From Hexactinellida sp. DTS-2022 (taxonomy: Eukaryota > Porifera > Hexactinellida): DNA of 64,000 nucleotides. The notes under the pieces were generated by a model. That model was given only the letters and a program-made list of their open reading frames with translations, was not told the DNA's origin and made no database searches. The stretch lies in assembly GCA_028753945.1 (NCBI GenBank), contig JAPNXP010000014.1, forward strand, positions 5,302,607-5,366,606, written 5' to 3'. Position 1 is the first letter of the stretch. Each line of letters starts with the position of its first letter. Both the position numbers and the translations under genes were made by a program. This document shows positions 3 to 53,400 of the stretch, piece by piece.

Positions 3-440
3 GCCAGCGAGGAGGAGAATGCGAATGTTAAGGAAAAGTACTCCTATCTCAAGTCCCAGTGGAACGAGAAGGTTGGAGTGATTACTACGATAGAGAATGA
101 GATGGCCCAGACTAAGCAGAAGTTCTCGGACCGAGAAGCGGAGTTCTTACGGGAGAAGGAGCGCATGGAACAGATGCAGGCAGAGACCAACCGGTATCGA
201 GAGAAAATAGATTTCGAGAAGAAAGAAGCTCTACACGAGATGTCTGCCGAGTTCAATCGGAAGGTTTCAGAGGTGAGAGCAGAAGCGGAGACACGAATCG
301 CGGAAGCGCAGGAAAAGGAGAAAGAAGTGGAAGAGGAGATGAGAGCATTACTTTTCGAGATTTCGCAGGAACGTAAGCATACGCAGCTAAAGTTCCAAAA
401 GCTTACCTCCACAATTCAAGATATTCAGAACAACTTTTGA
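3..440 (+). CDS. Coiled-coil protein, C-terminal part (5' truncated by window edge)
   Basis: An open frame enters from the left edge and ends at a TGA at 438-440. The 145 visible residues are almost entirely charged and heptad-like, rich in Glu, Lys, Arg and Gln, which predicts one continuous alpha-helical coiled coil down to the C-terminus. No catalytic motif, zinc finger or membrane segment is seen. A Met at base 78 exists, but the same frame is open with the same composition back to base 3, so 78 is unlikely to be the true start. The next gene on the same strand begins 144 bases downstream. Centrosomal, ciliary and many trafficking proteins have tails like this, so composition alone does not allow a family name. 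Confidence 0.6.
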   Translation, partial: ASEEENANVKEKYSYLKSQWNEKVGVITTIENEMAQTKQKFSDREAEFLREKERMEQMQAETNRYREKIDFEKKEALHEMSAEFNRKVSEVRAEAETRIAEAQEKEKEVEEEMRALLFEISQERKHTQLKFQKLTSTIQDIQNNF

Positions 441-584
441 TGTCCTCGATTTCTACTTTTTATCCGCTATAAATCTGAAAATAGTATCCCATGTACTATT
501 ATGAACTTACATTTACTTATATAACGATTTATTGTACATCTAATAGTATTTATTTTGCTTTAGCTATCTCACCCATACGAGACG

Positions 585-1358
585 ATGTCCAGCACCACCC
601 TAGAAGGACTCATAAACTCAGAGAAGGAGCCTTACAGAGAGGACTCCCAGTCCAAGTACTCCATACCTGGAGACGACGATTATCTGGAGTCAGGAGTCCA
701 CACAGGCTCGAAGGTGTCGCAAGCGTCTATTCACGTGAGACTCGGGTTCCTACGCAAGGTATACTTCCTTCTAGCGATGCAACTCACGCTCACAACGATC
801 GTAAGCTTTGCCTTCATAAAGCACGAAGGGATACGAGGCTTCATTGCTGCTCACCCCGGCCTGTTGACGCTGGATATGATTATTCTGTTTCCTATTCTGT
901 TTGCTCTGGTGTTCCTCAAAGACTCACACCCCACCAACCTGGTTCTGCTGTTTACATTCACCCTAGGCGAGTCTGTGATGGTAGGCCATATCGTGACCAT
1001 GTACGAGCTGCACTCAGTCATCACTGCGTTCGTCCTTTCGCTCTCTGTGTTCTTTATCCTCACCATGTACACCCTGCAGTCCTCCTATGATTTCTCCACT
1101 TGGGGGGCCTGTCTGTTCACATTCCTTTGGATCCTGTTGGTAGGCAGCTTGGTGCATGTGTTATTCCCGACGGAAATAGGAGATTTCATGATCTCGATGG
1201 CTGGCGCTATTATATTCAGTGGCTTTATAATACTGGACACTCATATGATAATGCATAAAGTTAGCCCGGACGACTATATCTTGGCGACGATCAATCTCTA
1301 CCTGGACATGATCAATCTATTTCTTTACATCTTAAGGATGATGAAGAGAAGAGACTAA
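585..1358 (+). CDS. TMBIM4: TMBIM4/Lifeguard-4-like Bax inhibitor family membrane protein
   Basis: A 257-residue single-exon protein. After a polar N-terminus (about 1-50) come seven hydrophobic segments typical of the TMBIM/BI-1 fold, a Ca2+ leak channel of Golgi or ER membranes that dampens apoptosis. Family landmarks are visible: VRLGFLRKVY before the first segment, LYTLQS-like TMYTLQSSYDFS in the middle, and near the C-terminus FIILDTHMIMHK and INLYLDMINLFL, where the conserved Asp residues form the pH sensor in this family. These match TMBIM4 more closely than BI-1 (TMBIM6). The ATG at 585 lies 22 bases after an acceptor-like TTTTGCTTTAG (AG at 562-563), which could be a spliced-leader or 5'UTR splice site. 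The gene follows a coiled-coil gene by 144 bases. Confidence 0.92.
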   Translation: MSSTTLEGLINSEKEPYREDSQSKYSIPGDDDYLESGVHTGSKVSQASIHVRLGFLRKVYFLLAMQLTLTTIVSFAFIKHEGIRGFIAAHPGLLTLDMIILFPILFALVFLKDSHPTNLVLLFTFTLGESVMVGHIVTMYELHSVITAFVLSLSVFFILTMYTLQSSYDFSTWGACLFTFLWILLVGSLVHVLFPTEIGDFMISMAGAIIFSGFIILDTHMIMHKVSPDDYILATINLYLDMINLFLYILRMMKRRD

Positions 1359-1557
1359 TTAGCCACGTAGTTACTTACGCTCAAATGATTTTTTGTTATT
1401 TGTAATTACTGTTATCTCCCCTTCCTTGAACGGACTGTGATACTGATTGGTTTGTGTGGCTAGCTTATAATTATATGAATATTAACCCCAGACTATTCTA
1501 GTATATATTTTTAATACGTGTTAATATCTGTATCATGTTACGTAGTATACCCTACCG

Positions 1558-1565
1558 TATATAAG
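1558..1565 (+). promoter_or_regulatory. TATA box of the first ABCC gene
   Basis: TATATAAG lies about 44 bases before the ATG at 1602, a spacing that leaves room for only a very short 5'UTR. It is the only clear core-promoter motif in the 243-base gap after TMBIM4. GTAAGT and GTGAGT also occur between this box and the ATG; they look like splice donors but no use for them is visible. Confidence 0.4.
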
Positions 1566-1601
1566 GTATCAGAATGAGTACAGTGTAAGTTCGGGTGAGT
1601 T

Positions 1602-4600
1602 ATGGGTTCAAATTTCACTTTCCTTGACTCCTTGTGCGAGCCTGTGTCCTCCTTCTGGAGACCGCTGGACGACCCTACGAAGGGCTATGACGAGATAGAC
1701 TTCACGCTCTGCTTCCAGGACACAATTCTCCTGTCTCTGCCTTGCATTCTGTTTGTTCTGGCTTTTCTCTTTCAAATTTTGTACTACAACAAAACAAGCT
1801 TTCGCATTAGTGTTAACTACAAGAATGTGTCTAAGTTTCTGCTTGTCTGTCTCCTGGCTGGTGTTGCCTGTGCCGAGCTAGTCTACTCTATAGTGCGCCT
1901 TATACTCCTGCCGAACTCCGTGGCTCCATTCCAGATATACTCTCCCTTAATAGCAGTCGTAACTTTCCTGTTCTGTCTCTCTCTCATTCACTTCCATCGC
2001 ATTCGCGGCATTTACACTGCGGGCATATTCCACGTTCTGTGGCTAACGCTAATGCTTTATGACATAATCAGGATCCGTACCTATTCTCTGGAAATAGAAG
2101 GCACAACTGCTGCCAGTTCTGAGTATGTCTATTTGAGCATTGCTTGCGTGAATCTGTTGGTTCGTTCCACCTTGTTGTTCGTAACTCTGTTCCCTGACGC
2201 GATACCAGAGAGCTGGTTCAAAGGCATAGAAAAGCCCATCCCCGAAGAGAGAGCCACTTTCCTCTCCCAGATAACTTGGTGGTGGATGAATGGGCTCATA
2301 TGGAAAGGCTACAGACGGGCCCTAGATAGGACGGACCTCTGGTCCCTCCCTAGATCGGAAATGACTGCTACATGTGCTCCCGCCTTTCGGAATATTTGGG
2401 AGCATGAGTATCAGTCTAGATTGAAGAAGCTGGAAAAGAAACTCAAAGCGAATGGAGATGAGGATGTGTCGTTGAGAACAATGAAAGTTACTGAGAAGTC
2501 TCCTCTCATTCAGTCAGCGCCCGTCCATACGGACCCCCAACAAAATGCCAGTGATAAGAACTCCCTATTTATAAACTGTGTGTGGGTAATGGCTAAGGCA
2601 TACTGGCTGCCGTTCCTCATTAGCGCTGTGTTGAAGCTTTGCAATGATACACTCGTTTTTGTCAGCCCCCAGGTTCTGAAGCTGATGATCTCATTCATAC
2701 AGAACACTGACGAGCCGTACTGGCACGGGATCGTATATGCTCTGTTGCTCATCTCTGTTTCCATTATACAGTCTATCTTCTTTCAATACCATTTCGATGT
2801 TGTGTTCCGTCTCGGCATGAACATCCGATGCTCTCTCATTAGCATGATCTATAGGAAGTCTCTCAGGCTGAGTGCAGAGGGCAAGCAGAAGTGTGCGACC
2901 GGAGAAGTCGTAAATCTGATGTCCGTGGACGCGCAGCGGTTTATGGATTTAACCACGTTTATTAATTACCTTTGGTCGGCTCCTTATCAAGCGATTGTTT
3001 CAATCGTTTTCTTGTATTTCTCGATAAAATATGCAGTATTCTCTGGACTCATCGTCATGCTGATGCTAATTCCTATGAACAGTGTATTGGCCGCGATCAA
3101 TCGAAAGATACAGGCCAAACAAATGGCATTGAAGGATAAGCGAATTAAGATAATGACAGAGATACTGAGTGGCATCAAGGTAATCAAGCTGTACTCCTGG
3201 GAGTCCCCGCATACCGCTGAGATATTGTCCATTCGGGAGCAGGAAATGAGGATGCTCAAGTACTCTGCTATCCTAAGCGCTATTTCTAACTTCCTCTTCC
3301 AGACAGCGCCAGTGCTGGTGTCGCTTGTTTCGTTTGCAACTTTTGTTCTTACGGGTAACGAACTAACTGCAGAGATTGCTTTCGTTGCACTTTCTCTCTT
3401 CTCTATTCTTAGGATCCCTCTGGGAGTTCTGCCTTGGACGATATCAATGGTTGTAGAGTGCAGTGTGTCTGTCACGCGCCTGAACAAGTTCTTGAACCTC
3501 GAGGAACTTGATAAGAACTCTGTTAACTGGTCTCGGACAGATGTCATTGGCCAGCCAACAATTTCATTGAGAAATGTAACATATTCCTGGCTGAAGTCCG
3601 AACCACCCGTTTTGAAAAACTTGAATCTCAAAGTCACTCATGGTTCTCTATTATCGGTCATTGGCCAGGTTGGATCTGGCAAAACGTCCTTCCTAATGTC
3701 TCTGTTGGGAGAGATGGAGAAACTCAATGGGGAAGCTAGGATAGCAGGAACTGTTGCATTCGTTCCTCAAATCCCGTGGATGCAAAACGAGACCCTGAAG
3801 AACAACATTCTGTTCGGAGCGCCGGAAGACCGACACCGCTACCGAGACGTGCTGAGGGCCTGTGCGCTGGAGAGCGACATCAAGATCCTGCCCACCGGGG
3901 ACCAGACAGAGATAGGGGAGAAAGGCATCAACCTGAGCGGGGGTCAGAAGCAGCGGGTGAGCCTAGCCAGAGCCATCTATCAGGACTCGGATGTGTATTT
4001 CCTGGATGACACGCTGTCAGCTGTCGACGCACATGTCGGCCAGCACATCTACCAGGAGGTCATCGGCCCTAACGGTCTGTTGAAGAACAAAACCAGAATA
4101 TTCGTTACGCACAACCTGAACTATGTCTCGGACAGTGATTACATCGTTATGTTTGAGAATGGTGCCATAACTGATGAAGGTACCTATGATGCTATAATGC
4201 AATCAAACGGGCCGATAAGTCAACTAATAAGGCATTATGCGACAGTGGCGAAGCATGGCGAAGTTCCCATAGAGGCTGCTACGAATCTACCAATAGAAAC
4301 GGATGGGAAAGAGGGGGAGGATAAAGCTGATACGGTTGAGGAGAAAAAAGGAGAAATTATTTCGGAAGAGACGGTTGAATCAGGCGGCGTGCAACTCAAA
4401 GTGCTCCTTGCCTATCTACGGTCTATCGGCGTGATTCTTTCTGTGTGTATTCTTCTGGCTTACATCGTTACAAACGTCGCTAATGGCGGCACGTCTCTCT
4501 GGCTAGCAAACTGGAGTAACCAGTACGATGTAGGACCTAACACTACTGGCAACTCGACTAATGGGACTACTGTGGATGTGGCGTACTACCTCGGGGTTTA

Positions 4601-5724
4601 TGCAGGGCTGGGTTTCATTCAAGGGCTCTTCACATTAATATCTTCTTACCTGCTCGCAATAGGAGCAATATTCGCTTCCAGATACTTACATAAAATACTT
4701 TTATTGAACGTCCTTCGATGTCCACTTTCCTTCTTCGACAAGACTCCCATCGGAAGAATAATCAACAGGTTCTCGAAAGACATTTATCTCATCGATGAAA
4801 CAATCCCCAGATCGATCAGCTCTTTCCTAAACGCTCTCTTCGGCATTATTTTAGTGTTCTTTATCATTTGCTATGCCACTCCCCTCTTTATAACTGTCAT
4901 TATTCCAATGGCCATATTCTACTTTGTGGTGCAGAGGATTTACGTTGCTACCTCTCGGCAGTTGAAGCGATTAGAGTCCATCTCCCGGTCTCCCATTTAT
5001 TCTCATTTCCAGGAATCTCTGAGCGGCGCTAGCAGCATCAGAGCCTATAAGAGACAGAACGATTTTATTCTGCAGAACGAGTTTCAGTTGGATTACAACA
5101 ATGAGGCGTACTACCCGAGTCTCTGCGCTAATCGCTGGTTAGGATTGCGGCTGGAAATCGTTGGTCATTTCGTTGTCTTCTTTGCAGCGATTTTCGCAGT
5201 AATTTCCAGGCAGCTCTCAATAACAAATGCGGGGCTGATTGGACTGTCGATCAGCTATGCTCTTAGTGCTACAAGTGTTCTGAACTGGCTGGTACGAATG
5301 ACCTCTGAGCTAGAGACTAATATTGTGGCCGTGGAGAGAGTTAAGGAGTACGCGGAGCTGGAACGAGAGGCTTCTCCGGTGACAGACAAGATCAATCTCC
5401 CGGCCGACTGGCCGAAGCAGGGAGTGGTGCAGTTCAACAACTACAGTGTCCGTTACAGAAAGGACCTCGATCCGGTGATCGACAGGCTAGACCTGGAGAT
5501 CAAGGGCGGCCAGAAACTGGCCATCGTGGGCAGAACAGGAGCGGGCAAATCCTCCCTGACTCTTGCGCTGTTCCGGATCCTGGAGGCAGACGGGGGGAGT
5601 ATTGTTATTGACGGAGTTAACATAGCCGATGTGGGACTGGACGACTTGCGGTCCCGACTCACCATTATTCCCCAGGACCCGGTCCTGTTCTCTGGCACCC
5701 TCAGGTCCAATCTAGATCCCTTTG
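1602..5724 (+). CDS. ABCC1/MRP-like ABC transporter A, large exon without its own terminal exon
   Basis: A long MRP-type ABC exporter of organic anions and conjugates. The single exon encodes 1374 residues: TMD0 with about five membrane segments (1-190), the L0 linker (FLSQITWWW), TMD1, NBD1 (Walker A GQVGSGKT near 688, signature LSGGQKQR near 777, Walker B VYFLDD near 798 with the Asp usual in ABCC NBD1), TMD2, and the start of NBD2 (Walker A GRTGAGKS near 1310, Q-loop IIPQDP). Coding stops being homologous right after LDPF, at a GTGAGT donor (exon end 5724, phase 1). Read-through gives a 22-residue unrelated tail ending at 5792. The NBD2 signature, Walker B and H-loop are absent from 5725-6201. 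The next gene's last exon (10491-10912) has the same phase and could complete this protein to about 1514 residues. Whether that happens, or the gene is truncated, cannot be decided from sequence. Confidence 0.88.
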
Positions 5725-6201
5725 GTGAGTTAACTTTATGTATATATTTATTTATCAATCCAATGTTACATTGTTATGGTAAAGGTAGTTAGAAATTATA
5801 TACCAATTGAGTTGTAGTATTCACTTAGTGATAATAATTTATGCAGGTAGTCAGTTGAATTAATTGATACCACCAAAGGTCATTTCTTATTATAAAAACG
5901 CCCCAGGATATCAAGTAGCTATTTGGAGACGTAATAGTGTGTAACTCATGATTAATTCAAGAATAACACAATTCCCTAAATAGACTAATTAATGTTTCAG
6001 TCATTTGATTCCGATTGTAATTCACTTAGCACATAAATGTAAACTTGATATCAGATGCCCACTCATTAGGACCTATAAATACAGACATTTCTGACTCTAA
6101 AGAAGTTCCTAGTTCCCTTATATTATATCTTACAAATAACAATTGAGTTGTAACTTGCTGGGTTGCCACATTTCATTAGCACTTCGACATTTTAATCGCA
6201 A
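5725..6201 (+). other. Gap between the two ABCC genes; no terminal NBD2 exon
   Basis: This AT-rich stretch starts with the GTGAGT donor of ABCC A. Acceptor-like AGs (for example after TTTATGC at about 5846 and TGTTTC at about 6000) open onto in-frame stops in phase 1 within a few codons. No sequence resembling the ABCC signature or Walker B was found. The second half carries the promoter of ABCC B. Confidence 0.7.
6074..6081 (+). promoter_or_regulatory. TATA box of the second ABCC gene
   Basis: TATAAATA in a GGACC context, 128 bases before the ATG at 6202. It indicates that ABCC B has its own promoter and is not merely a downstream exon of ABCC A. Confidence 0.4.
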
Positions 6202-9200
6202 ATGGCTTCCAACTCCACATTTCTCTATTCCTACTGTCAGCCAGTCTCGCGGTTCTGGGGCGGGCTAGAGAACCCGAGCCGCGGCTACGACGAAATAGAC
6301 ATATCTCTCTGCTTTCAGGACACTGTTCTGCTGGCCGGAGTAAGCCTTGTGTTCTGTCTCGCGACTCTAACTCAAATCCTGTACTACCGTAAGACTAACT
6401 TCCGTATTCCCTTAACGCTGGTGAGTCTGCTAAAGGAGTTGTTCATCTCCTTAGACATCTTAGTGGTGGCAGCAGAAGCGATATTCGCAGTCTACATGTA
6501 CATTGTTAACCAGGACTCTATTGGAATCTTTCAAATCGTAACCCCTATCGTAGTATGCTGTACATTGTTCGTTGCATTGATATTGGTGCAGTATCACCGG
6601 TTCAGAGGCATATTCACTTCTGCGCTCTTTCACATATATTGGTTCGTACTGGTGCTGCATGATGGTATAAAGATCCGGACATACTCGCTAGACATTGAAG
6701 GTCACGTTTTAAAGCAGCCTTACAGCACAACTACCAGTCCTGTGTTCCTCTCTTTCACTTGTCTAAACTTGCTAATCAGGTTAATCCTGCTAATCGTAAC
6801 GCTATTTTCTGACAAAATACCCGAGAGCTGGTTCAAAGGGATAGAAAAACCAATCCCAGAAGAGAGAGCCACCTTTCTCTCCCAGATAACTTGGTGGTGG
6901 CTGAATGGGCTGATCATCACTGGGTTCAGACGGACCCTGGAGAGATCCGACCTCTGGTCCCTCAACAGGGCAGACACGACCGAGCATTGTGCGCCGCAAT
7001 TCAGGCACTCGTGGGAGAACGAACTTCGTAAGAAACAAGCGAAATTAGCAAACAGGCCGCATATTAATCAACATGAGTTGTTGTTGAATACGATTAAAAA
7101 GTCCAGCGAGAAAGACCCCCTCTTACAGTCTGCAGAAGGTAAGAGCGCTCGGAAGAAAGAACCTGAAAACCCACTCTTTGTTAGTACTCTCACAATCTTG
7201 GTAAAGAGCTACTGGTTCCCATTTCTGGTAACTGGTACGTTCAAACTTATACACGACTCGTTAATATTCGTCAGTCCCCAGATCCTGAGTCTCCTGATTG
7301 GGTTCGTACAGGACCCGAGTGAGCCTTACTGGCACGGGATCGTATACGCTCTAATACTCTTACTTGTGTCCATATTGCAGTCAGTTTTACTTCACCAGTA
7401 CTTCCAGAAGGGCTTCGTGCTCGGAATGAACATCCGTACAGCGTTGGTTAACGTTATTTATAGGAAGGCCCTCAGGCTTAGCCACGAGTCTCGCCAGAAG
7501 ACTACCATTGGAGAGATTGTGAACTTGATGTCCGTGGACGCTCAGAGGTTTATGGATTTAATGACGTACATTCACATGATTTGGTCAGCTCCTTTCCAAG
7601 TTATCCTCTCAGTTATATTCCTATATTTCACAATAGGGTATTCGGTTTGTGCCGGGCTATTTGTCATGGTCATGATGATTCCAATTAATGGTGTGATCGC
7701 AGCGATCAATCGAAAGTTGCAGAGAATTCAAATGGAGTTGAAAGATAAACGAATTAAGACCATAACAGAGATATTGAACGGTATAAAAGTAATCAAATTA
7801 TACGCTTGGGAAATTCCTAACCAGGAGGAAGTGTTGGAGATTCGAGAACAAGAAATGAAGGTTCTCAAGTACAGCGCGATTCTAGCGGCTGTGGCTACTT
7901 TCACCTGGATGACGGCTCCACTCCTGGTGGCCGTGGCATCATTTGCTACGTATGTCCTGGCGGGAAATCCTCTTACGCCCCAAGTCGCATTCGTAGCTCT
8001 GTCGCTCTTCAATATTTTGAGATTCCCCATGAGCATGCTGCCATTCCTAGTCTCCTTTCTCGTTGAATGCAGCGTGTCAATAACGAGGATGAACAAATTC
8101 CTAAATCACGAAGATTTGGATCCTAATAGCGTTAAGTGGTCGAAAAACCCTGCGATATTAGGGGAAGCTGCTATTCTGGTTCAACACGCCGACTTTGGCT
8201 GGACGAAGGGCGGAGAGCCGGTCCTGAAAAACATCAACATACGGGTTGACCCGGGTACACTGATCTCTATCGTCGGGCAAGTGGGCACGGGGAAGAGTTC
8301 CTTCCTGATGGCTCTGTTGGGAGAGATGGACAAACATCGCGGAGACGCTAGACTACAAGGATCCGTTGCATTTGTTCCTCAAATTCCGTGGATGCAAAAC
8401 GAGACCCTGAAGAACAACATTCTGTTCGGAGCGCCGGAAGACCGACACCGCTACCGAGACGTGCTGAGGGCCTGTGCGCTGGAGAGCGACATCAAGATCC
8501 TGCCCACCGGGGACCAGACAGAGATAGGGGAGAAAGGCATCAACCTGAGTGGGGGTCAGAAGCAGCGGGTGAACCTAGCCAGAGCCATCTATCAGGACTC
8601 GGATGTGTATTTCCTGGATGACACGCTGTCAGCTGTCGACGCGCATGTCGGCCAGCACATCTACCAGGAGGTCATCGGCCCTAACGGTCTGTTGAAGAAC
8701 AAAACCAGAATATTCGTTACGCACAACCTGAACTATGTCTCGGAAAGTGATTACATTGTTATGTTTGAGAACGGGACAATAGTAGAGCAGGGGGAGTACG
8801 GCGCTGTGCTCAGAGCTAACGGACAGATCGCTCAGCTGATCGAGACCTTCGCGACAACTGGCACCACTGCAGCTTCGCCAGGAGCAGACGGAGATGGAAA
8901 TGAAGAGGCGACTCCGATAAGTCCAACTGGGGTCGTGTCTCCCACTCAGTTACAGAGGCAGAAAAGCGAAATCGGGAAGCCTGCTGATACGAATGCCGGG
9001 ACTATCATTGATGAGGAAAAAGCAGATTCTGGCCGTGTGAGTATGCAGGTGGTATACGTCTACGTGAAGTCTATTGGCCTGATACTTTCAACCTGCATTA
9101 TGATATTCTACATTCTAACATATGTCGCTAGCGGGGGTACATCGATCTGGCTTGCCTTCTGGAGTAATCAGTATCTCCCGAATCCGAACTCTACCAACCA

Positions 9201-10912
9201 AACAAATGTCACCACAGCGGATCCAAATGTAGCTTTCTATTTGGGGGTATACGCTGGCCTTGGACTAGTACAGGGAATATTCACGTTTGCTTCCACTTAT
9301 TTCTTTGCCATAGGTGCTATTAATGCATCCCGCGATCTTCACAAAATGGTATTGTTGAACATCATCCGTCTTCCAATGTCGTTTTTTGACAGAACTCCCA
9401 TCGGAAGGATCGTGAATCGATTTTCTAAAGATATTTATTACATCGACGAAACCATCCCCAGGTCGATTAGAAGCTTTTTGAGCACATTTTTCGTGGTTAT
9501 CATGACCATCGCGATCATATCCTATGCCACACCTTTATTCTTGACTGTCGTTGTTCCACTTATGGTATTCTACCTGTTTGTACAGAGATTCTATGTCTGC
9601 ACATCTCGGCAGTTAAAGCGCATTGAGTCCGTGACGCGGTCCCCCATCTATTCGCACTTCCAAGAGTCGCTCAACGGCGTGAGCACTATCCGGGGGTACC
9701 GGCTGCAGGGCCACTTCATCAAAGAGAGCGAGAACAGAGTCGACCGCAATCAGGAGGTGTACTACCCCAGCATTTGTGCCAACAGGTGGCTAGCTATCAG
9801 GCTAGAGCTGGTGGGCCATTTCGTTGTCTTCTCTGCTGCTCTGTTCGCTGTTATATCGAGACAGTTGCACATAACTAACGCGGGCCTGATCGGCTTGTCC
9901 ATCAGCTACGCGCTGAGCGTAACACAGGTTCTGAACTGGCTGGTACGAATGACCTCGGAATTGGAAGCTAACATCGTTTCAGTGGAGAGAGTTAAGGAGT
10001 ACGCGGAGTTGGAAAGAGAGGCTTCTCCGGTGACAGATAAGATCAACCTCCCGGCTGACTGGCCGAAGCAGGGAGTGGTGCAGTTCAACAACTACAGTGT
10101 CCGCTACAGAAAGGACCTCGACCCGGTGATCGACAGGCTAGATCTGGAGATCAAGGGCGGCCAGAAACTGGCCATCGTGGGCAGAACAGGAGCTGGCAAA
10201 TCCTCCCTGACTCTTGCGCTGTTCCGGATCCTGGAGGCAGACGGGGGGAGTATTGTTATTGACGGAGTTAACATAGCCGATGTGGGACTGGACGACTTGC
10301 GGTCCCGACTCACCATTATTCCCCAGGACCCGGTCCTGTTCTCTGGCACACTCAGGTCCAATCTAGATCCCTTCAGTAAGTGCGGACAAATAGCAACGGA
10401 TAAAACAACTTCTACACTTTATTCTATTATGTTTACTAAATAGTTATTGCCCTTAGTTATAATTTAGTTTATAATTCTTTCGTCCTTTAGAAACTCTGCC
10501 GGACGCGCGTCTCTGGGAGGCTCTGGAGCACTCGCACCTGAAGCAGCACGTGGAGGGAATGCCGAAGGGCCTCGACTTCATTATTCAGGAGGGGGGAGAG
10601 AACCTGAGCGTGGGACAGCGACAAATGGTGTGTCTAGCCAGAGCTCTGCTCAGACGCACGAAGATCCTGGTTCTAGACGAAGCCACGGCCGCCATAGACA
10701 TGGAGACTGATGACCTTATCCAGAAGACTATTAGAGAGCGCTTCACTGAGTGCACTGTCATTACCATTGCTCACCGTCTTAAGACTATTCTCGACTACGA
10801 TCAGGTCGTGGTGCTCTCGTTCGGAAAGTCTATTGAGCACGATACCCCAAAGAACCTGATCGATAAGAAGGGCTCCTTCTACGACTTGGTTAAGGAGGCA
10901 GGACTCCTGTGA
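6202..10912 (+). CDS. ABCC1/MRP-like ABC transporter B
   Basis: Complete MRP-type transporter of about 1531 residues in two exons, 6202-10375 and 10491-10912, split by a 115-bp GTAAGT...TTTAG intron in phase 1. Order: TMD0, L0 linker, TMD1, NBD1 (Walker A GQVGTGKSS near 692, LSGGQKQR, YFLDD), TMD2, NBD2 (Walker A GRTGAGKSS near 1326). The second exon supplies the signature LSVGQRQ, Walker B ILVLDEA with the catalytic Glu, and the H-loop TIAHRL. As in the family, NBD1 is degenerate and NBD2 catalytic. It is a head-to-tail duplicate of the gene at 1602. Two tracts of about 400 bp (NBD1 and the start of NBD2) are nearly identical at the DNA level while the rest has diverged, which suggests gene conversion. 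The likely role is plasma-membrane efflux of glutathione or other anionic conjugates. Confidence 0.95.
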
Positions 10913-11705
10913 AGTCTCGTTTTACGCTTTGTAACTTAGAATGGGGAAATAAGGTGGTTTGGATTGTCAGTGTTTGTTTGTTTTTACCGTTGCTTTTAAC
11001 TTGTAATTACGTACCGTCATTCTTATTTACTTTTATTGAATGCTTTCCTTTTAATTCATTAACTTACATATGAGATAAAATAGAAATATCTCTCACTGTA
11101 TTTACACAACTGTAAAGCATTTTATTTGCTGTATGATATATTAACTTACCAGTTTTCTCTCTCATGATTGTTTTCAACGTTGATTAACTCATATAATTAG
11201 CTAATCCTATTGTGTTAGAGATTTTGTCTTTTTGGGCGGTTTTATTCTTACTGGGTTCTATAAATATGCAGCCCTCTCGAGATCTAATATTGTTTATTTG
11301 ATTCTAAACTACTTCTAATACATATTTCTGAATCTCTCTATATAACTGTTCTTCTACCTCAAGAATTATTACCCTGGGATGTTTGGTATAAAGTACAGTG
11401 GCTATTCAGATCTAAATCAGTATTTTGTTGATTAACAACTTGTTGTTTATCAGTAATAGTTTATTTTTACAGCAACAGGTTTCGTAATTTGGAGATTTCA
11501 TTGCAATTAATGGTGTACTTCTAAATATAGAATCCAAACTATGTTCTAAGCTATTTAAACTGATTACGTAGTAACTAGACGTGTGGCTTTGTATAGCGAA
11601 CCCAATGAATAGGCTAATATTTTATGTATATAGATAGGACCAGCTGTATCAGTAAAACTAACTTATAAGTAATTGGTCAATCAATTTATTAGTCCAAATA
11701 ACTAT
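10913..11705. other. AT-rich intergenic stretch, ABCC B to CNPPD1
   Basis: No coding potential is visible on either strand in these 793 bases. A TATA-like TATAAATA at 11259-11266 followed by GCAGCCCTCTCG could be the CNPPD1 promoter with a roughly 400-base leader, but this is weak. No repeats or RNA genes were recognised. Confidence 0.4.
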
Positions 11706-13875: not shown

Positions 13876-15933
13876 CTATTTAGTTGTGAAAGGCGGCACG
13901 AGCACGAGCGGCAGTGCCTCGTGCTGGTGCAGACAGCAGTAGCTGGCCAGCTCCGTCAGGTCCTGGCAGCTCGGCTGCGCGCCCGACAGAAGCGTGCCCC
14001 GGGAGGTGCACTCTATGAGGCACTCCCCGATCTGGGGGTCCGGGCCTAGCTCCAGCAGGAAGTATATCGTGAGGAAGGGAATGGAGTCGCTGCTGAAGAC
14101 TAGGAACGAACCTCTGGGCGCGAGAGGGGAGGAGAAGAGCCCCTTTACGTCTGCGGGGGGGTTGCAGTTCTGGTACCAGATGGAGCGGGTCTCTTTCAGG
14201 TGCGCCTTGAGACTCTCCTCCTTGTAAGAGATGTGACTCAGCAGCTTGTGCCGCTTGGCGTCGAACGAGAACGCGAATGGGTACGCCACGTCCCGCACCA
14301 CGACGGCACTCTCGCCTCTCTGCCTGAGCCGCACCAGCTGCAGACTGTTGGCCAGCAGCGCCGGCAGCGAGCTGTGCGTGTCCCGGAATGTCCCCAGCTT
14401 TATGGACAGCTCCGAGTTGTTCTTCAGCACCGGGAAGTGGAGAATGGACTGGAGCGAGTTCTTGATGGAGAGAGTGTAGTTGGCGCCCTCGCTGACGGTG
14501 AGAATGAAAGAGCCGACATGTCGGTAGCACAGCAGAGAAGTGATGGTGCCCTCGTCAGCCACCTCGTAATACCAGAAGTCCTTGTTGGTTGTCAGGTAGA
14601 ACTCGAGCTTGAGTCTGTCGAACAGGTTCTGCGCGTGCGAGTTGGACGGGTGGGCGGCCTCGGGGGGCTTGGGGTACCTTAGGTGGCAGGGCAGGTATCC
14701 GCCGGAAGTAAAGAGAGTCAGGTAGCTGAGGAGGGTAGACAGGGACGGGAATATGATCGGACACTCTTGTACCTCAAACCCGAAGCGGGAGCCTTTGAGT
14801 TTGCAATCGAATATGACATTTTGTTCGAAGTAGATGGAGAGGAACTTTATTCCCTTATCCCTGCACTCCCATATAAGGAAGTTAATGGCGTGGTCCGTGT
14901 TAAGCCGGGCGTGCACTTCCTCTGCGGAGCTGCCGGTCAGCAGCCAGCGCCTGTGTCCGCCCGCTATCTCCCTGGCGCGGGCGTAGATGCGCTCCTTCTC
15001 GAGGAGAGAGACGGGGTAGTCCTCCAACTTGACTCTGTCGCCGGGGCTGAGCGCCGCGGGCGGGAACAGCCGCGGGGATATGAGGTACAGGTCCGCGGAG
15101 AGGGTGCTCGAAAGCGCGCAGAAGTGCGTAAGCAGCGAGGAGAGCGAGAAGAAGTACTCGGGGGACTCCCGGATCTTGTAGCGCCGGTACAGAATGCCGA
15201 TCTTGTGCAGCTGTATGCTGGCGTTGTGGATGAGCGGGTCCACGCGCACGTAGAGACTTATGAACCCACTCGCGTCCGGGTCCGTGATGCAGAAGGTCCC
15301 CACGTCCGTCTCGTGCATGAGCTGCTCCACCTCCCACTGGCTGCAGACCGTGTCCAGGTACCAGCGGTCCAGGTTAAGCGCCATCTCCTGGCACAGCCCG
15401 GCCGACAGGTGCGAGGGGGACCGCAGGATCTCCGGCATGTCCCGACTCGGGACCGCCGCGGCCTGGTTAACCTCCCCCAGCACCAACTCGAAGTCGGACC
15501 AGCTCCTGAGGGTGCTCGTCTCGTCTATCCAGCCCCCCTTCTGCATCTTGTCCTCCCACTTGCGGAAAGCTCTGTCGAACACGGAGTCCGGAGGCAGGGC
15601 CTCGCGGCTGTCGCTGTCGCCTGCGAATTTGTGAGGTGTGAACTTCCGCGAGGAGGAGTATATGATATCGAGCTGCTCCTCGAGTGGATAGTCGTCTAGG
15701 TTGTGGAATATGTCCTCTACAGGGGCCGGGGAGCTGGCGAAGGGCAGCGGCGTCTCCTCCATGAGGCCCGGCGTGAGGGACGGGAGGGCGTGCGGCTCTT
15801 GGATCTGAAACTCGCTTTCGACAAACTTCTGAGAAGACTTCTTCTTGGAAATGGATTTCTTGTTAACAGTCGCGTATATGGCGGGCGGGTTGTTTGGGGA
15901 CGCTTTGAAGCCGGGGTTGCTGCTAGAAGCCAT
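13876..15933 (-). CDS. Protein with four tandem SH2-like domains, all lacking the FLVR arginine
   Basis: A 685-residue single-exon protein. The chosen start (MASSS, 15933) lies two bases after an acceptor-like CCTCCGTTCCTAG; an in-frame ATG six codons upstream precedes that site. Residues 1-185 are low-complexity. Four repeats then fit the SH2 pattern (WY, A-helix, G-S/T-F strand, B-helix with F-x-S-L-x-x-L): about 191-271 (RWYLDTV, GTFCIT, FFSLSSLLTH), 330-408 (RWLLTG, INFLIW, FPSLSTLLSYL), 453-531 (FWYYEV, GSFILT, HSSLPALLA) and 585-668 (IWYQNC, GSFLVF, DLTELASYC). The phosphotyrosine-contacting Arg of the FLVR motif is Thr, Trp, Thr and Phe respectively. Canonical pTyr binding is therefore unlikely, and a scaffold role is inferred. 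No kinase, SH3 or other domain is seen. I do not recognise a named orthologue; the SH2 assignment rests on motif spacing. Confidence 0.75.
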   Translation of the reverse strand: MASSSNPGFKASPNNPPAIYATVNKKSISKKKSSQKFVESEFQIQEPHALPSLTPGLMEETPLPFASSPAPVEDIFHNLDDYPLEEQLDIIYSSSRKFTPHKFAGDSDSREALPPDSVFDRAFRKWEDKMQKGGWIDETSTLRSWSDFELVLGEVNQAAAVPSRDMPEILRSPSHLSAGLCQEMALNLDRWYLDTVCSQWEVEQLMHETDVGTFCITDPDASGFISLYVRVDPLIHNASIQLHKIGILYRRYKIRESPEYFFSLSSLLTHFCALSSTLSADLYLISPRLFPPAALSPGDRVKLEDYPVSLLEKERIYARAREIAGGHRRWLLTGSSAEEVHARLNTDHAINFLIWECRDKGIKFLSIYFEQNVIFDCKLKGSRFGFEVQECPIIFPSLSTLLSYLTLFTSGGYLPCHLRYPKPPEAAHPSNSHAQNLFDRLKLEFYLTTNKDFWYYEVADEGTITSLLCYRHVGSFILTVSEGANYTLSIKNSLQSILHFPVLKNNSELSIKLGTFRDTHSSLPALLANSLQLVRLRQRGESAVVVRDVAYPFAFSFDAKRHKLLSHISYKEESLKAHLKETRSIWYQNCNPPADVKGLFSSPLAPRGSFLVFSSDSIPFLTIYFLLELGPDPQIGECLIECTSRGTLLSGAQPSCQDLTELASYCCLHQHEALPLVLVPPFTTK

Positions 15934-16027
15934 AACTAGGAACGGAGGCATTAATTACATAATTAACTAAGTTAGAATCAGGTTGATAATTGTGTATTCA
16001 ATAGAGGTGTCATAAAGCAGTTATCAA

Positions 16028-17029
16028 TCAGTCGCAGGTCGCGGGTCGCGGCTTCGCCTTCCGCGCGTGGGCCTTTGAGTCCTGCTTGAGGAGACTCAGC
16101 ATCGGCTCCCAGAGCTCCTTCTCGCCCACGCGGCTGCGCGCCGTGCGCAGCAGCAGCGGGCACCACCCGAAGTGGCAGTGCTCCAGCAGCTTGACCCGGA
16201 CCCCGTGCGCCAGCGAGAGGCACCGGATCACTCGCAGACCGAACTTGTCGATGCGCGTGGAGATGGCCAGCTGGTTCTGGTCGCTCTGCACGAACTGAGT
16301 TATGATGGAGTTGACCAGCTCCGGGTCGCGGAGCAGGTTCCGCTTGTCCTTGGCCCGGTTCCCCGCGGGCAGGTCCCGCATGACCGCGTCCGTCTGCCCC
16401 GGCTTGCACAGGATGCTCTCGAAGGTGCTCTCCTCGTCGTCTGCGTCCAGGTTGGTGACGTCACTAGCTCGCTTGTGGCTGGACACGGCGGGGGCGGGGC
16501 GGGGAGGGAGCTTGTCGGAGGGCAGATGCCTGCTAGCGGGGGGAGTGGACTGCCGGTCTGTTTCTATGCCGACGTACTCCTCGTTGCTGTCGGTGTCGCT
16601 GGGCACCAGACTGTCGCTAACCGTCTTGCGCTTGTTCATGATGCGCTTCCGCTTGCTGGACTTGCCGCGGCAGAGCTCTTCGTCCAGACAGCCCAGCTCC
16701 TCGTGTTCCGACTCGTTCTTATGAGAGAGGAAGCTCTTGTCTACGAACTTGAGTTCCTCCAGGCGACTGACCACGTCTTTGGATGCGGTCACCTGAGTGA
16801 CGCACAATCTCGAGAGGAAGTTGGGAGGCAGCGCGGTTTCTCTCGCCCCCTGGCAGCTGAGACTCTGCGGCAGTTCGAACAGGGGACAGTCAATGCTGAC
16901 GTCAGTCTCGCTCCCCACTTCGTAGTACTGCTCTATTATCTTTCCGTCGATCAGCTTCTGCTTCCGCTTCCGGTAGGTGATCCGTCCTTTCCTCAGGCGC
17001 TTGCGCTTTTGCAGCTGTTTCACTGACAT
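16028..17029 (-). CDS. Basic, probably nuclear protein of unknown family
   Basis: A 333-residue single-exon protein not recognised. The N-terminus is strongly basic (KRKRLRKGRITYRKRKQK), with another Lys/Arg cluster near 125 (KSSKRKRIMNKRK). Both look like nuclear or nucleolar localisation signals. The middle is Ser/Asp/Pro rich and probably disordered. Residues about 215-310 seem folded and contain a hydrophobic helical stretch (NSIITQFVQSDQN ... IRCLSLAHGVRVKLLEH). No catalytic motif is apparent. It lies in a minus-strand cluster, with the SH2-like gene starting 94 bases after its stop. An acceptor-like TGTTGTAG lies about 9 bases before the ATG. High GC with a regular frame, and strong nuclear-signal-like features, argue that it is a real gene. 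Confidence 0.65.
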   Translation of the reverse strand: MSVKQLQKRKRLRKGRITYRKRKQKLIDGKIIEQYYEVGSETDVSIDCPLFELPQSLSCQGARETALPPNFLSRLCVTQVTASKDVVSRLEELKFVDKSFLSHKNESEHEELGCLDEELCRGKSSKRKRIMNKRKTVSDSLVPSDTDSNEEYVGIETDRQSTPPASRHLPSDKLPPRPAPAVSSHKRASDVTNLDADDEESTFESILCKPGQTDAVMRDLPAGNRAKDKRNLLRDPELVNSIITQFVQSDQNQLAISTRIDKFGLRVIRCLSLAHGVRVKLLEHCHFGWCPLLLRTARSRVGEKELWEPMLSLLKQDSKAHARKAKPRPATCD

Positions 17030-17292: not shown

Positions 17293-19809
17293 TCAATTAG
17301 ACTTGGTAGCCTCGCCACCAGTGGTGGAGGTTCGCTTCTTCTTACTGAGAGAGGAAACAAGGGTGGGAGAGCCCAGCAGCTGGGAGCAGGCCTCGCAGAC
17401 GCGCGTCTCCTTGCTCTGCTGGTTGTCAGCTGTCCACTGGGAACACTCGTGACAGAAGAGTCTGCAGCAGTGCCTGCACCTGTGCTTGCGCCGCGTCATG
17501 TTGAACTGGTTCCGACAGACGGGGCACTGGAGCGCGTCCTCCTCGTACTCCCAGCGGAGCAGCTTCCGCTCGTCCTCCAGCTCCGCCACCTGCTTCTGCA
17601 GCCGCTGCGAGAGCCGCACGAAGTCCCGCTGCACCTCCTCGCTCGTGTTCAGCTCCTTCTTCAGCAGCAGCAGCACGCACCCCTTCTCCTCCAGCTCTGA
17701 TCCCAGCTGGGAGTTAGACTCACCCAGGCGCCCTGTCTCTGCCTCGCTCTTCTGCGTGATGGCAGCCAGCTCCGCCTCCAGACGCTGGTTCTCGCAGAGG
17801 AGCTCCTCTTTCGTCTTCTGCACAATCTCCAGCTGGGTCCTCAGCTGGCTCACCTCGCTAGCCTGCTTCTTCTGGACCACAATCTCCTCTGCAAAGGAGG
17901 TCTCCACGCTCTCCTTCTCTCTCACGAGCCGCTCTATCTCCTCCGCCCGGTCCGTGAGTCTGCTGCCCAGCTCGCTGCCCTGCTTGCTCTTGGCGTCCTG
18001 CAGGAAGTCCAGCTGCTGCTGCAGCGCCGCCACGTTGCTCTCGGCCTCGGACTTCCGGTACTTCTCCTCGTTGAGCTGCGCGCTGTAGTCCTTAAGCTCG
18101 CCCACGCGCTGCGACTCGAGGGAGGAGTAGCCGCCCTCTATCTGTCGGATGCGCAGCAGCAGTTTCTCCCTGTCGTTCATGAGCGCCGCTATCTGCTGCT
18201 GCGCGTCCGTCTTGGCTATGCTCAGTTCCTGCCGCATCTCTCCCAGCAGCTCCGCCAGGGCCGTCTCCTTCTCCGAGTACGCGTCCTGGATCGGCTTAAG
18301 TCCGGACAGCTGCTGTGCGGCCTCCTTACGCATCTCAAGTTTAACCTTCCTCTCCTTGCTCAGCGCCAGCTTCTGCTGGTCGACTGTAACCTTAAGGAAT
18401 GTCATCTGCTTCTGCGTCTGGCTGGTCTCCATGGGCCCAGAGGACCGACTGGTCTGCAGAGCGGCCACCTCCTCCTCCAGGCCCCGCTTCTCGCCCTCCA
18501 GCTGCTCCAGGCGCCCCCGCGCCTTAGAGAGCTCCTCCCTTAACAGACCGGCCCCGCCCTCCTCCGACAGCTCCGCCAGCCGCCCGCTCAGCTCGGGCGT
18601 GCTGCACAGCGGCTCCCCGGGACCCAGTCTAAACCTGACCGGGGACTCCGTCAGGAGGGAGACCTCTGCCTTGGGCGGGCCCGGGGGGAAGAGGGGGTGT
18701 CTGAGGTACTCCTGCACTATGTCCCAGTCCAGCTGCGAGAACTCCGCCGGCCGCTCCGAGAGAGACACCTGGCAGACCGTCAGCAGCTGCTGCAGCTTGC
18801 TGGCTGTGGTTTTGAGTTTGTTCAGCTCCTTGTTGATCCTGGAGAGGTGTCCGGTCAGAGACGCGTTCTTGTCCATCAGTTCGTAGTTGTCGGCTCTCAG
18901 CTCGTCCAGCAGACCTTCGTACTTAGTGCAGCGCAGCTGGCAGTCCCTGGCGGCGCCCTCCAGGCTCCGAATGCGCTCCTCCGTCTCGCGACGCGTGTCC
19001 AGCTCGCTGCGCGCCTGGCTGATGTCCAGCACCTGTTGCACCACCCCGATGGAGGAGCTCTCGAACAAAGGGTCGAACATCTGCACGTGGCTCCCAGGCG
19101 CGACGTCTGCGCTGGACAGGATTGTGCTCATAAAGGCGTCGGACTCCTGAGTGGGAGGGACCGGCGTGTCCGCTCCCAAGTTGATGAGGTCTCCCGGCTT
19201 GGCAAGGGCTGCCTGCTCCCTTGTCTCCAGCTGCCGGCGGAGACTGGCTATCTCTCTCTCGAGCGGGAGAACCACGTTCTTGAGCTTGGAGCTCTCCTCC
19301 TGGGCTCTGCTCATCTGGTCCTCTAGAGATGGGTTGGGCTTGGGGGCCTCCTGGGAGGCCTTGAGTTTGGAGAGCTCCTCTATCAGGTTGTTCCTCTCGC
19401 TGACCCACTTCCCCTTCTGCATGGACACGATCTGCAGCTGCGCCTGGTACTCCTGCAGCTGCAGGTGGTAGCTCTGGCGCAGCGAGACCTGCTCCTGCTC
19501 CAGTCGCCCCCGCAGACCCTCGTACTCCTGCTCGTCCATGGTCTGCGAGAGCTTCAGCATCTCCATGGCCTCGCTGTGCTCGCTGCCCAGCGCCTCCAGC
19601 TGCTCTCTATAAGCGCTGTTCTCAGCTGAGAGCGAGTCGATCTTATCCTGCTGCAACTTCAGCTCGGACTCCTGCGTTAGCAGAATGTCTTTGAACTTGG
19701 AGCGCTGCTTGTTGAAGTCCGACTGGAAGGTCTCCAGCTTGAGCTCCGCCTCCAGCAGCTGCGTCCGGACCTCTGTCTCTGTCGCTGTCGCTGTCTCTCC
19801 TTGCGACAT
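17293..19809 (-). CDS. Rabaptin (RABEP)-like Rab effector with C-terminal FYVE zinc finger
   Basis: An 838-residue single-exon coiled-coil protein. Three blocks match vertebrate Rabaptin-5: FNKQRSKFKDILLTQESELK near 33, SRAQEESSKLKNVVLPLERE near 167, and ELNTSEEVQRDFVRLSQRLQ near 715, the last in the Rab5-binding region. Directly after it, residues 762-811 form a complete eight-cysteine FYVE finger (CPVC, RCRHC, CHEC, RVCEAC), with spacing CX2C-X12-CX2C-X4-CX2C-X15-CX2C and the basic RRKHRC motif that binds PI3P. Vertebrate Rabaptins lack this finger, so the protein combines Rab5 and PI3P binding as EEA1 does. It should act in early-endosome tethering or fusion. It lies 133 bases downstream of NDUFS8 on the same strand. 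Confidence 0.85.
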   Translation of the reverse strand: MSQGETATATETEVRTQLLEAELKLETFQSDFNKQRSKFKDILLTQESELKLQQDKIDSLSAENSAYREQLEALGSEHSEAMEMLKLSQTMDEQEYEGLRGRLEQEQVSLRQSYHLQLQEYQAQLQIVSMQKGKWVSERNNLIEELSKLKASQEAPKPNPSLEDQMSRAQEESSKLKNVVLPLEREIASLRRQLETREQAALAKPGDLINLGADTPVPPTQESDAFMSTILSSADVAPGSHVQMFDPLFESSSIGVVQQVLDISQARSELDTRRETEERIRSLEGAARDCQLRCTKYEGLLDELRADNYELMDKNASLTGHLSRINKELNKLKTTASKLQQLLTVCQVSLSERPAEFSQLDWDIVQEYLRHPLFPPGPPKAEVSLLTESPVRFRLGPGEPLCSTPELSGRLAELSEEGGAGLLREELSKARGRLEQLEGEKRGLEEEVAALQTSRSSGPMETSQTQKQMTFLKVTVDQQKLALSKERKVKLEMRKEAAQQLSGLKPIQDAYSEKETALAELLGEMRQELSIAKTDAQQQIAALMNDREKLLLRIRQIEGGYSSLESQRVGELKDYSAQLNEEKYRKSEAESNVAALQQQLDFLQDAKSKQGSELGSRLTDRAEEIERLVREKESVETSFAEEIVVQKKQASEVSQLRTQLEIVQKTKEELLCENQRLEAELAAITQKSEAETGRLGESNSQLGSELEEKGCVLLLLKKELNTSEEVQRDFVRLSQRLQKQVAELEDERKLLRWEYEEDALQCPVCRNQFNMTRRKHRCRHCCRLFCHECSQWTADNQQSKETRVCEACSQLLGSPTLVSSLSKKKRTSTTGGEATKSN

Positions 19810-49493: not shown

Positions 49494-50492
49494 GGTAGAT
49501 TTTAGAATTATTGAAATAGACCATCTCCAAGTCAATTTTGTTACTAAAAATAGTCCAGGATTAGAATTGGCTAATCTTTACACCAGATTACCCAGAAGTC
49601 ACTTTGAATGGCGAGAGCTTTCAGTAGGAGCCATACATTCACACTTTCATTGCACTGGTTTTACCCTCGATTCCATTGAACACAATTTAGAAAAAGATAC
49701 ATTTATAATTGAACCATTTGGACCCCATGGAAGGCGATTTTGTTATCAAAAAAAATAGTCTCGATTCAGAATTGGCTAATCTTTACACCAGATGACCCAG
49801 AACTCACTTGAATGGAGAGAGCTTGACTAGGAGCAATACAAACACACTTTAATAATCGCACTGGATTACCCCGGAAAGTCGCATTATAATCCCTTGGCAA
49901 GGTAGATTTTAGCATTCATAAAATGGGACATTTAGAAGTCGATTTGGTTTCTAAAAATAATAGTCCAGATTTAGACAAGGCTATTCTTGACACCAGTTAT
50001 CCGAGAACTCACTTAACTATGGGAGAGCTTTACTAGGAGCCATACATTCACACTTCAATTGCACTGGTTTTACACCTGATCCCTACTAGAAAGTTAGTAA
50101 AGTGATGATTTCCAGTATATCTGATGAACACTTTATAAGACGATTTTGTCACTCTAAAAAAGACATGACGAACCGGAAACTGTTCATTTTCACGATTCTA
50201 CATATAACTGACATTGAATAGAGACTGTTTTCACAAGGCAACCGTTCAAAGTCAATACAATTAGCAGTCAATGCTTTACCCCGGAAACTCGCATTAGAAT
50301 CCATTAAAAACATAGATTTTAAATTTAAGCAAATGGACCAGTTAGAAGACGCTTTGGTGATCAAAAAAAATAGTTTCGATTTAGAATTGGCTATTCTTGA
50401 CACTGGAATACACCAAAGTCACTTAACTATGCGAGACTTTTCTCTAGGTGCCATATATACACAATTTATATCACTGGTTTTACCCATAAAAA
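49494..50492. repeat. Degenerate satellite, ~205-bp period, ancestral-looking edge of the 212-bp array
   Basis: About five diverged units. The motif GATTTAGAATTGGCTAAT recurs at about 49560, 49764, 49969 and 50376 (steps of 204-206, one double step), and GGAGCCATACATTCACACTT recurs with it. The units also align with the 212-bp monomer, for example TAGATTTTA..., ...CCAGG... and TTTACACCAGA versus TTTACTTTCCACCAGA. Units differ from each other by many substitutions. A 63-codon frame at 49567-49758 lies inside the repeat and is not a gene. Confidence 0.7.
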
Positions 50493-53400
50493 CATAGATT
50501 TTGAGAATGCTATAAAAGTACATTTGGAAGGTGACTGTTTGACAATAAACAATCCAGGTCACTTTAAAAAGAGATTTACTTTTCACCAGACATCCCAAAC
50601 ATCACATAAAGATAGCCAGTCCTTTCACTATACCCCATCAAACACAATAAAAAAGAAGAATTCTATCACTCCCTTCGTTCCCAGCCAATTTTTAACCAAC
50701 CAAAGATAGATTTTAAGAATGCTATAAAAGTACATTTGGAAGGTGACTGTTTGACAATAAACAATCCAGGTCACTTTAAAAAGAGATTTACTTTCCACCA
50801 GACATCCCAAACATCACATAAAGATAGCCAGTCCTTTCACTATACCCCATCAAACACAATATAAAAGAAGAATTCTATCACTCCCTTCGTTCCCAGCCAA
50901 TTTTTAACCAACCAAAGATAGATTTTAAGAATGCTATAAAAGTACATTTGGAAGGTGACTGTTTGACAATAAACAATCCAGGTCACTTTAAAAAGAGATT
51001 TACTTTCCACCAGACATCCCAAACATCACATAAAGATAGCCAGTCCTTTCACTATACCCCATCAAACACAATATAAAAGAAGAATTCTATCACTCCCTTC
51101 GTTCCCAGCCAATTTTTAACCAACCAAAGATAGATTTTAAGAATGCTATAAAAGTACATTTGGAAGGTGACTGTTTGACAATAAACAATCCAGGTCACTT
51201 TAAAAAGAGATTTACTTTCCACCAGACATCCCAAACATCACATAAAGATAGCCAGTCCTTTCACTATACCCCATCAAACACAATATAAAAGAAGAATTCT
51301 ATCACTCCCTTCGTTCCCAGCCAATTTTTAACCAACCAAAGATAGATTTTAAGAATGCTATAAAAGTACATTTGGAAGGTGACTGTTTGACAATAAACAA
51401 TCCAGGTCACTTTAAAAAGAGATTTACTTTCCACCAGACATCCCAAACATCACATAAAGATAGCCAGTCCTTTCACTATACCCCATCAAACACAATATAA
51501 AAGAAGAATTCTATCACTCCCTTCGTTCCCAGCCAATTTTTAACCAACCAAAGATAGATTTTAAGAATGCTATAAAAGTACATTTGGAAGGTGACTGTTT
51601 GACAATAAACAATCCAGGTCACTTTAAAAAGAGATTTACTTTCCACCAGACATCCCAAACATCACATAAAGATAGCCAGTCCTTTCACTATACCCCATCA
51701 AACACAATATAAAAGAAGAATTCTATCACTCCCTTCGTTCCCAGCCAATTTTTAACCAACCAAAGATAGATTTTAAGAATGCTATAAAAGTACATTTGGA
51801 AGGTGACTGTTTGACAATAAACAATCCAGGTCACTTTAAAAAGAGATTTACTTTCCACCAGACATCCCAAACATCACATAAAGATAGCCAGTCCTTTCAC
51901 TATACCCCATCAAACACAATATAAAAGAAGAATTCTATCACTCCCTTCGTTCCCAGCCAATTTTTAACCAACCAAAGATAGATTTTAAGAATGCTATAAA
52001 AGTACATTTGGAAGGTGACTGTTTGACAATAAACAATCCAGGTCACTTTAAAAAGAGATTTACTTTCCACCAGACATCCCAAACATCACATAAAGATAGC
52101 CAGTCCTTTCACTATACCCCATCAAACACAATATAAAAGAAGAATTCTATCACTCCCTTCGTTCCCAGCCAATTTTTAACCAACCAAAGATAGATTTTAA
52201 GAATGCTATAAAAGTACATTTGGAAGGTGACTGTTTGACAATAAACAATCCAGGTCACTTTAAAAAGAGATTTACTTTCCACCAGACATCCCAAACATCA
52301 CATAAAGATAGCCAGTCCTTTCACTATACCCCATCAAACACAATATAAAAGAAGAATTCTATCACTCCCTTCGTTCCCAGCCAATTTTTAACCAACCAAA
52401 GATAGATTTTAAGAATGCTATAAAAGTACATTTGGAAGGTGACTGTTTGACAATAAACAATCCAGGTCACTTTAAAAAGAGATTTACTTTCCACCAGACA
52501 TCCCAAACATCACATAAAGATAGCCAGTCCTTTCACTATACCCCATCAAACACAATATAAAAGAAGAATTCTATCACTCCCTTCGTTCCCAGCCAATTTT
52601 TAACCAACCAAAGATAGATTTTAAGAATGCTATAAAAGTACATTTGGAAGGTGACTGTTTGACAATAAACAATCCAGGTCACTTTAAAAAGAGATTTACT
52701 TTCCACCAGACATCCCAAACATCACATAAAGATAGCCAGTCCTTTCACTATACCCCATCAAACACAATATAAAAGAAGAATTCTATCACTCCCTTCGTTC
52801 CCAGCCAATTTTTAACCAACCAAAGATAGATTTTAAGAATGCTATAAAAGTACATTTGGAAGGTGACTGTTTGACAATAAACAATCCAGGTCACTTTAAA
52901 AAGAGATTTACTTTCCACCAGACATCCCAAACATCACATAAAGATAGCCAGTCCTTTCACTATACCCCATCAAACACAATATAAAAGAAGAATTCTATCA
53001 CTCCCTTCGTTCCCAGCCAATTTTTAACCAACCAAAGATAGATTTTAAGAATGCTATAAAAGTACATTTGGAAGGTGACTGTTTGACAATAAACAATCCA
53101 GGTCACTTTAAAAAGAGATTTACTTTCCACCAGACATCCCAAACATCACATAAAGATAGCCAGTCCTTTCACTATACCCCATCAAACACAATATAAAAGA
53201 AGAATTCTATCACTCCCTTCGTTCCCAGCCAATTTTTAACCAACCAAAGATAGATTTTAAGAATGCTATAAAAGTACATTTGGAAGGTGACTGTTTGACA
53301 ATAAACAATCCAGGTCACTTTAAAAAGAGATTTACTTTCCACCAGACATCCCAAACATCACATAAAGATAGCCAGTCCTTTCACTATACCCCATCAAACA

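Follow-up and report, generated by a model that had tools for sequence, protein, structure and literature searches.

A hexactinellid protein with four tandem SH2-like domains lacking the FLVR arginine, and its diverged paralogue

A single open reading frame in the window (the whole stretch of 64,000 nucleotides that was analysed, which sits at the end of contig C6) encodes a 691-aa protein with four SH2-like repeats in tandem, none of which has the FLVR arginine. Based on this protein and on a diverged paralogue found in the same genome, we consider it most likely to be an SH2-repeat scaffold that acts independently of phosphotyrosine.

The four-SH2 gene and its repeats

The open reading frame lies at 13876..15951 on the minus strand. 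A preliminary description of this DNA had begun the protein at 15933, which corresponds to Met7 of the 691-aa frame; upstream of the first ATG, the second codon is an in-frame TAA, and the frame itself contains no internal stops. Its fit to the codon use of the other genes in the window was −3.88 per codon, as against −4.10 to −4.58 for the other five frames. GC3 is 0.83 for the four-SH2 gene, with values of 0.85 and 0.86 for its neighbours at 16028-17029 and 17293-19809, respectively. With an open frame of 691 aa and codon use like that of the other window genes, the earlier remark that the gene bears no sign of decay was borne out.

On the same strand, an ORF of 333 aa (16028-17029, minus strand) lies upstream, with 76 bases between its end and the start of the four-SH2 gene; none of the Pfam families matched it above cut-off. 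A fusion of the two was considered and rejected: the GC-rich coding sequence of the upstream ORF halts at its TGA and is followed by 76 AT-rich bases, and for this reason the two are treated as separate genes. A CTAAC...TTAG stretch between them is a possible splice or trans-splice acceptor, and the four-SH2 gene may have a spliced link to the upstream ORF, or a 5' intron.

Elsewhere in the window, Pfam matches were obtained for Bax1-I, CIP2A N-terminal, sestrin, bHLH-PAS, RhoGEF and radial-spoke families, a set of genes that looks animal-like. Two tandem ORFs at 1602-10913 are ABCC/MRP-like, the family being named by eye. The first of these runs as far as a GTGAGT donor, short of its last nucleotide-binding part, and the only matching last exon seen for it lies after the second copy (about 10491-10913). 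Identity is 95% over a stretch of 474 bp and 91% over one of 565 bp, with the other three long matches at about 71-83%; the high-identity stretches look as though they arose by gene conversion or belong to a last exon that is shared. From 50490 to 64000, a tandem array of a 212-bp unit (~64 copies, 99% matches, strong C-over-G skew) reaches the end of contig C6 and is perhaps a subtelomeric or other satellite.

The four repeats of the 691-aa protein were placed, all on the minus strand, at 15070..15375 (R1, residues 193-294), 14668..14955 (R2, residues 333-428), 14275..14589 (R3, residues 455-559) and 13888..14190 (R4, residues 588-688), the last being the weakest of the four. In the N-terminal region that precedes them, the SH2 HMM described below gave no signal for a fifth repeat (−1.6 bits). 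This region also holds a motif of 30 aa (15508..15597, minus strand; residues 119-148) that matches residues 69-98 of the paralogue with 40% identity (E 0.004).

Against Pfam PF00017, the whole four-SH2 protein scored 24.5 bits (E 2.9e-5) with a cut-off of 21, and by profile both it and the whole paralogue belong to this family. The four tandem SH2-like domains proposed in the preliminary description are upheld; for the repeats taken singly, the match to PF00017 held only in part. When four pieces of 109-120 aa were scanned, R1 was the only one to show SH2 (12.3 bits, E 0.19), under the cut-off and behind a chance match to PuR_N (E 0.1), and R2, R3 and R4 gave no Pfam matches. With three larger pieces, only R3-R4 gave SH2, at 19.0 bits and again under the cut-off. 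The weak scores of the separate pieces indicate that the Pfam evidence arises from the repeats jointly.

A search of the PDB with the whole protein returned one match, GRB2 (E 0.086). R3 alone gave 16 matches, 15 of them SH2; the best was the GRB2 SH2 domain (E 0.0082), and the one exception, a 2-oxoisovalerate dehydrogenase chain, ranked last (E 1.7). With R1 alone, only a stretch of p85 was matched (E 0.38), which we take to lie outside the p85 SH2 domains. When a profile of the four repeats was run against 177,635 distinct PDB sequences, all 29 matches at E ≤ 10 were SH2 by name (best E 0.034), again in keeping with the tandem SH2-like domains first proposed.

A hand-entered set of 15 canonical SH2 domains served for further comparison; the Pfam and PDB results are independent of it. 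By hhalign, the four repeats matched 16 hand-entered canonical SH2 sequences (one a near-duplicate) with 95% probability and E 3.7e-8. The profile-profile score of the four repeats against the 15 domains was 44.2, where 200 column shuffles reached 17.4 at most and the reversed alignment 9.4; omitting any one repeat left the score at 35 to 53. An SH2 HMM built from the 15 domains gave 19.7, 5.2, 12.3 and 4.2 bits for R1, R2, R3 and R4, scores that were matched or exceeded by 0, 1, 0 and 1 of 2000 shuffles, respectively.

A leave-one-out test was also employed, in which a three-repeat profile scored the omitted repeat against the reported shuffles. R1, R2 and R3 beat all of these (0 of 1970, 0 of 1810 and 0 of 1930, respectively), the margin for R3 being narrow (11.8 vs 11.0), and R4 was exceeded by 3 of 1831. 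With the profiles for R2, R3 and R4, some canonical SH2 domains outscored the omitted repeat, which was not so for R1; the repeats may have arisen either by internal duplication or by the joining of different SH2 domains. A four-repeat alignment with longer ends (A2) was left out because R3 was misaligned in it. On these scores R1 and R3 are clear predicted SH2 domains, with R2 and R4 weak alone.

Phosphotyrosine pocket and the paralogue

In both the MAFFT and the HMM alignments, the position of the FLVR arginine is occupied by T223 in R1, W361 in R2, T485 in R3 and F619 in R4. The betaB5 arginine of canonical phosphotyrosine-binding SH2 domains is therefore absent from every repeat, as the preliminary description had reported. 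For the rest of the pocket, the MAFFT alignment gave Q, A, E and P at alphaA2 for R1 to R4, respectively, and, with less certain placements, N, D, H and E at betaD4 and S, K, P and L at betaD6. The usual residue is retained at 2 of these 12 positions, short of a canonical pocket, and betaD4 is acidic in two repeats. The absent pocket residues suggest a protein that would not bind phosphotyrosine in the canonical manner; alternative basic residues in the repeats could hold a phosphate.

The genome (112.4 Mb in 18 contigs) was searched with either four-SH2 protein, and among the best candidates scored, each recovered only the other. The paralogue (L002; C10:1043504-1046011) is a protein of 836 aa, encoded in a single open frame, with four SH2-like repeats, Q1-Q4. 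It scored 21.3 bits against Pfam SH2, for which the cut-off is 21, and none of its stretches passed by itself; with SH2_1 it scored 24.3 bits, under the cut-off of 27. A PDB search gave four SH2 matches at E 0.33 to 1.8, with SLAP2/HCK at E 0.33 and weaker. With the SH2 HMM, Q1, Q2 and Q3 exceeded all 2000 shuffles, and the 0.6 bits of Q4 were reached by 89 of 2000. No relatives were confirmed among the viral contigs and prokaryote genome contigs searched.

By blastp, the two proteins aligned over 449 columns with 23% identity (E 4e-10), in a register that pairs R1-R2-R3 with Q2-Q3-Q4; their overall likeness is 23-25%. Repeat by repeat, the best pairs were R1-Q2 (E 1.6e-8) and R3-Q4 (E 0.004), and R2 matched none of the paralogue repeats at E ≤ 1. 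A profile of all eight repeats (R1-R4 and Q1-Q4), built without any known SH2 sequence, gave 227 matches in the PDB (best E 1.2e-9), the best 60 of the 227 being SH2 proteins by name; one of the eight repeats also matches PuR_N (E 0.11). The eight repeats scored 65.6 against canonical SH2 by hhalign, and none of 200 shuffles went above 17.6 (the highest value); the R and Q rows alone scored 58.3 and 47.6, respectively.

A W, the F of betaB and the L..L of alphaB are invariant in all eight repeats. The eight-repeat alignment has no arginine in its FLVR column, the residues there being Y, T, W, T, F, A, V and V; for the paralogue, the residues read from it are Ala, Tyr, Val and Val, the fourth repeat being uncertain. 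When aligned to canonical SH2 by hmmalign, Q1 and Q3 were unaligned at the FLVR column, and the arginine of the Q4 segment 'LLLVRDD' was placed there. From its position after the conserved F, we judge that this segment would be strand betaC. Relatives without the SH2 landmarks had been named in the preliminary description as what would speak against its assignment; the opposite was found, in that the paralogue keeps four SH2-like repeats and has no arginine where it can be aligned, Q4 being uncertain. Loss of the FLVR arginine looks like a property of the family rather than the decay of a single gene. At such divergence, an invariant SH2 core combined with a varying arginine position suggests that the fold is selected and phosphate binding is not.

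SH2 domains elsewhere in the genome and in known systems

Genome-wide, PF00017 gave 71 matches at E ≤ 1, of which 65 were above the cut-off. Neither four-SH2 protein is among the 71, which shows how strongly both have diverged. The FLVR column is reached by 67 of the matches, and 62 of these 67 keep the arginine; the five without it have H, W, Y, T and T, the two T matches being two copies with the same sequence across the stretch shown. With a tyrosine/serine-threonine kinase model, 143 of 391 candidates were scored, and at least 102 matched at E ≤ 1e-30 (kinase kinds pooled). Taken together with the retained arginines, these matches indicate that phosphotyrosine signalling does not look lost in this genome. 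A second Pfam SH2 model, PF21990, matched two other loci. When the eight-repeat profile was applied to the Pfam SH2 matches of the genome, the top score (39.1 bits) belonged to L027, which retains the arginine.

As in the four-SH2 pair, multiple SH2 domains per gene were seen at L046, L033 and L034. L046 (G000:C5:4688500-4695500) has three SH2 domains in a row, apparently in one gene with introns, L033 (G000:C18:3581500-3587000) combines a caspase-like domain with three SH2 domains in one protein frame, and L034 (G000:C16:5307500-5312500) combines a caspase-like domain with two. The FLVR arginine is kept in three of three domains of L046, two of three of L033 (R, W, R) and two of two of L034, whereas the alignable repeats of the four-SH2 pair have none. 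With three SH2 domains each in L033 and L046, multi-SH2 chains are not unique to the four-SH2 gene. That chains with three or more SH2 domains are unusual is supported for human proteins only, for which at most two per protein are given (PMC10320075).

The caspase-like domains of L033 and L034 scored 17.6 and 22.2 bits, respectively, against a Pfam cut-off of 21.4, and by eye their usual catalytic motifs look lost. At C5:973686-977247, caspase matches lie ~2 kb from an SH2 match. In L038 (G000:C18:1348500-1354000, ORF 267-2939, minus strand), an AMP-binding (acyl-CoA synthetase-like) enzyme carries a fused SH2-like domain whose FLVR position is Tyr.

Among known proteins, TYK2, RIN2 and SH2D5 each carry a single SH2 domain, accompanied by FERM, kinase, VPS9 or PTB domains. 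The four-SH2 pair differs in having four, and Pfam recognises nothing else in it; in particular, the FERM and kinase domains of JAK kinases are not matched, only SH2 models being so. What is shared with TYK2, RIN2 and SH2D5, which are named as human SH2 proteins without the FLVR arginine, is the replacement of this residue, by His or Trp in those domains (PMC7530234). The human complement is given as 120 SH2 domains in 110 proteins, ten of which have two (PMC10320075), and the SH2 domains of the JAK family are described as belonging to a larger module that binds receptors (PMC7530234, PMC3507883).

SPT6 is described as having two tandem SH2 domains packed together, the C-terminal one without the pocket arginine (PMC3507883, PMC7530234) and binding pSer via another surface (PMC7530234). 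The tandem arrangement and the missing arginine of that C-terminal copy recall the four-SH2 protein, but SPT6 is a transcription factor with two SH2 domains rather than four. No match to SH2_2 (PF14633) was obtained with the four-SH2 protein (E ≤ 10) or the paralogue (E ≤ 1), whereas SPT6 of the same genome (L042) scored 203.8 bits with this model.

Proposed function and alternative readings

As a scaffold, the four-SH2 protein would be a non-catalytic adaptor, with an N-terminal region followed by four SH2 domains in a row; no catalytic domain was found in either four-SH2 protein by Pfam. The SH2 fold would have been retained and the phosphotyrosine pocket abandoned in each copy, and the four domains would pack against each other or grip partners via other surfaces. 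The packed SPT6 tandem, with the alternative surface of its C-terminal copy, and the JAK-family SH2 domains within their larger module offer partial parallels. The sequence shows SH2 homology of the set, the four copies, the absence of the arginine from all four repeats of this protein and the plan shared with the paralogue, and from these we infer the scaffold role and any partner. More tentatively, it is possible that this lineage has made its SH2 domain structural, with four arginine-less copies packed as a continuous rod or platform and the phosphotyrosine system otherwise intact.

The main rival to a scaffold is that the repeats read altered ligands, the old pocket binding unphosphorylated Tyr, Glu/Asp, hydrophobic residues, or pSer/pThr, which would make the protein a four-site reader rather than a passive scaffold. 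Occupation of the pocket position by Thr, Trp, Thr and Phe is consistent with this, as are the arginine-less SH2 domains of human RIN2, TYK2 and SH2D5, described as recognising Glu/Asp (PMC10320075), and the SH2 domains of SPT6, described as binding pThr and pSer (PMC7530234). However, the substituted residues vary from repeat to repeat and between the paralogues (T, W, T and F against A, Y, V and V) and do not resemble a single new specificity that has been conserved, and we regard altered-ligand reading as rather unlikely.

Less probable again is a former multi-SH2 phosphotyrosine adaptor that is diverging fast or decaying and is now weakly constrained. The low scores of single repeats and a likeness of merely 23-25% between the paralogues would fit such a history, for which L046, with its arginines kept, and L033, with R, W, R, show a possible ancestor form; it is harder to reconcile with the long uninterrupted frames of both copies (691 and 836 aa), with codon use in the 691-aa copy that matches the other window genes, and with invariant core positions common to both. 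That the repeats are not SH2 at all, and that a different alpha/beta repeat resembles SH2 by chance, we hold to be very improbable. Such a reading could draw on the lack of Pfam matches for R2 to R4 cut singly and on isolated other matches (PuR_N at E 0.1 and 0.11, the dehydrogenase chain at E 1.7 and the p85 stretch at E 0.38), but the repeat profiles agree on SH2 when set beside shuffled controls and with E-values far better than those of the isolated matches, and each of the two proteins, scored whole, lies above the cut-off of Pfam SH2.

Among the open-access titles and abstract openings listed, no four-SH2 protein is named; full texts do contain the phrase 'four SH2 domains', and 'three SH2 domains' with architecture terms was not found in open-access full texts. 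A relative of the four-SH2 family elsewhere is quite possible. SH2 domains are the textbook readers of phosphotyrosine. A family that has four such arginine-less domains per chain, and that persists as two diverged copies alongside SH2 domains that mostly keep the arginine, would offer a natural test of the roles that the SH2 fold can take once freed from phosphate binding.
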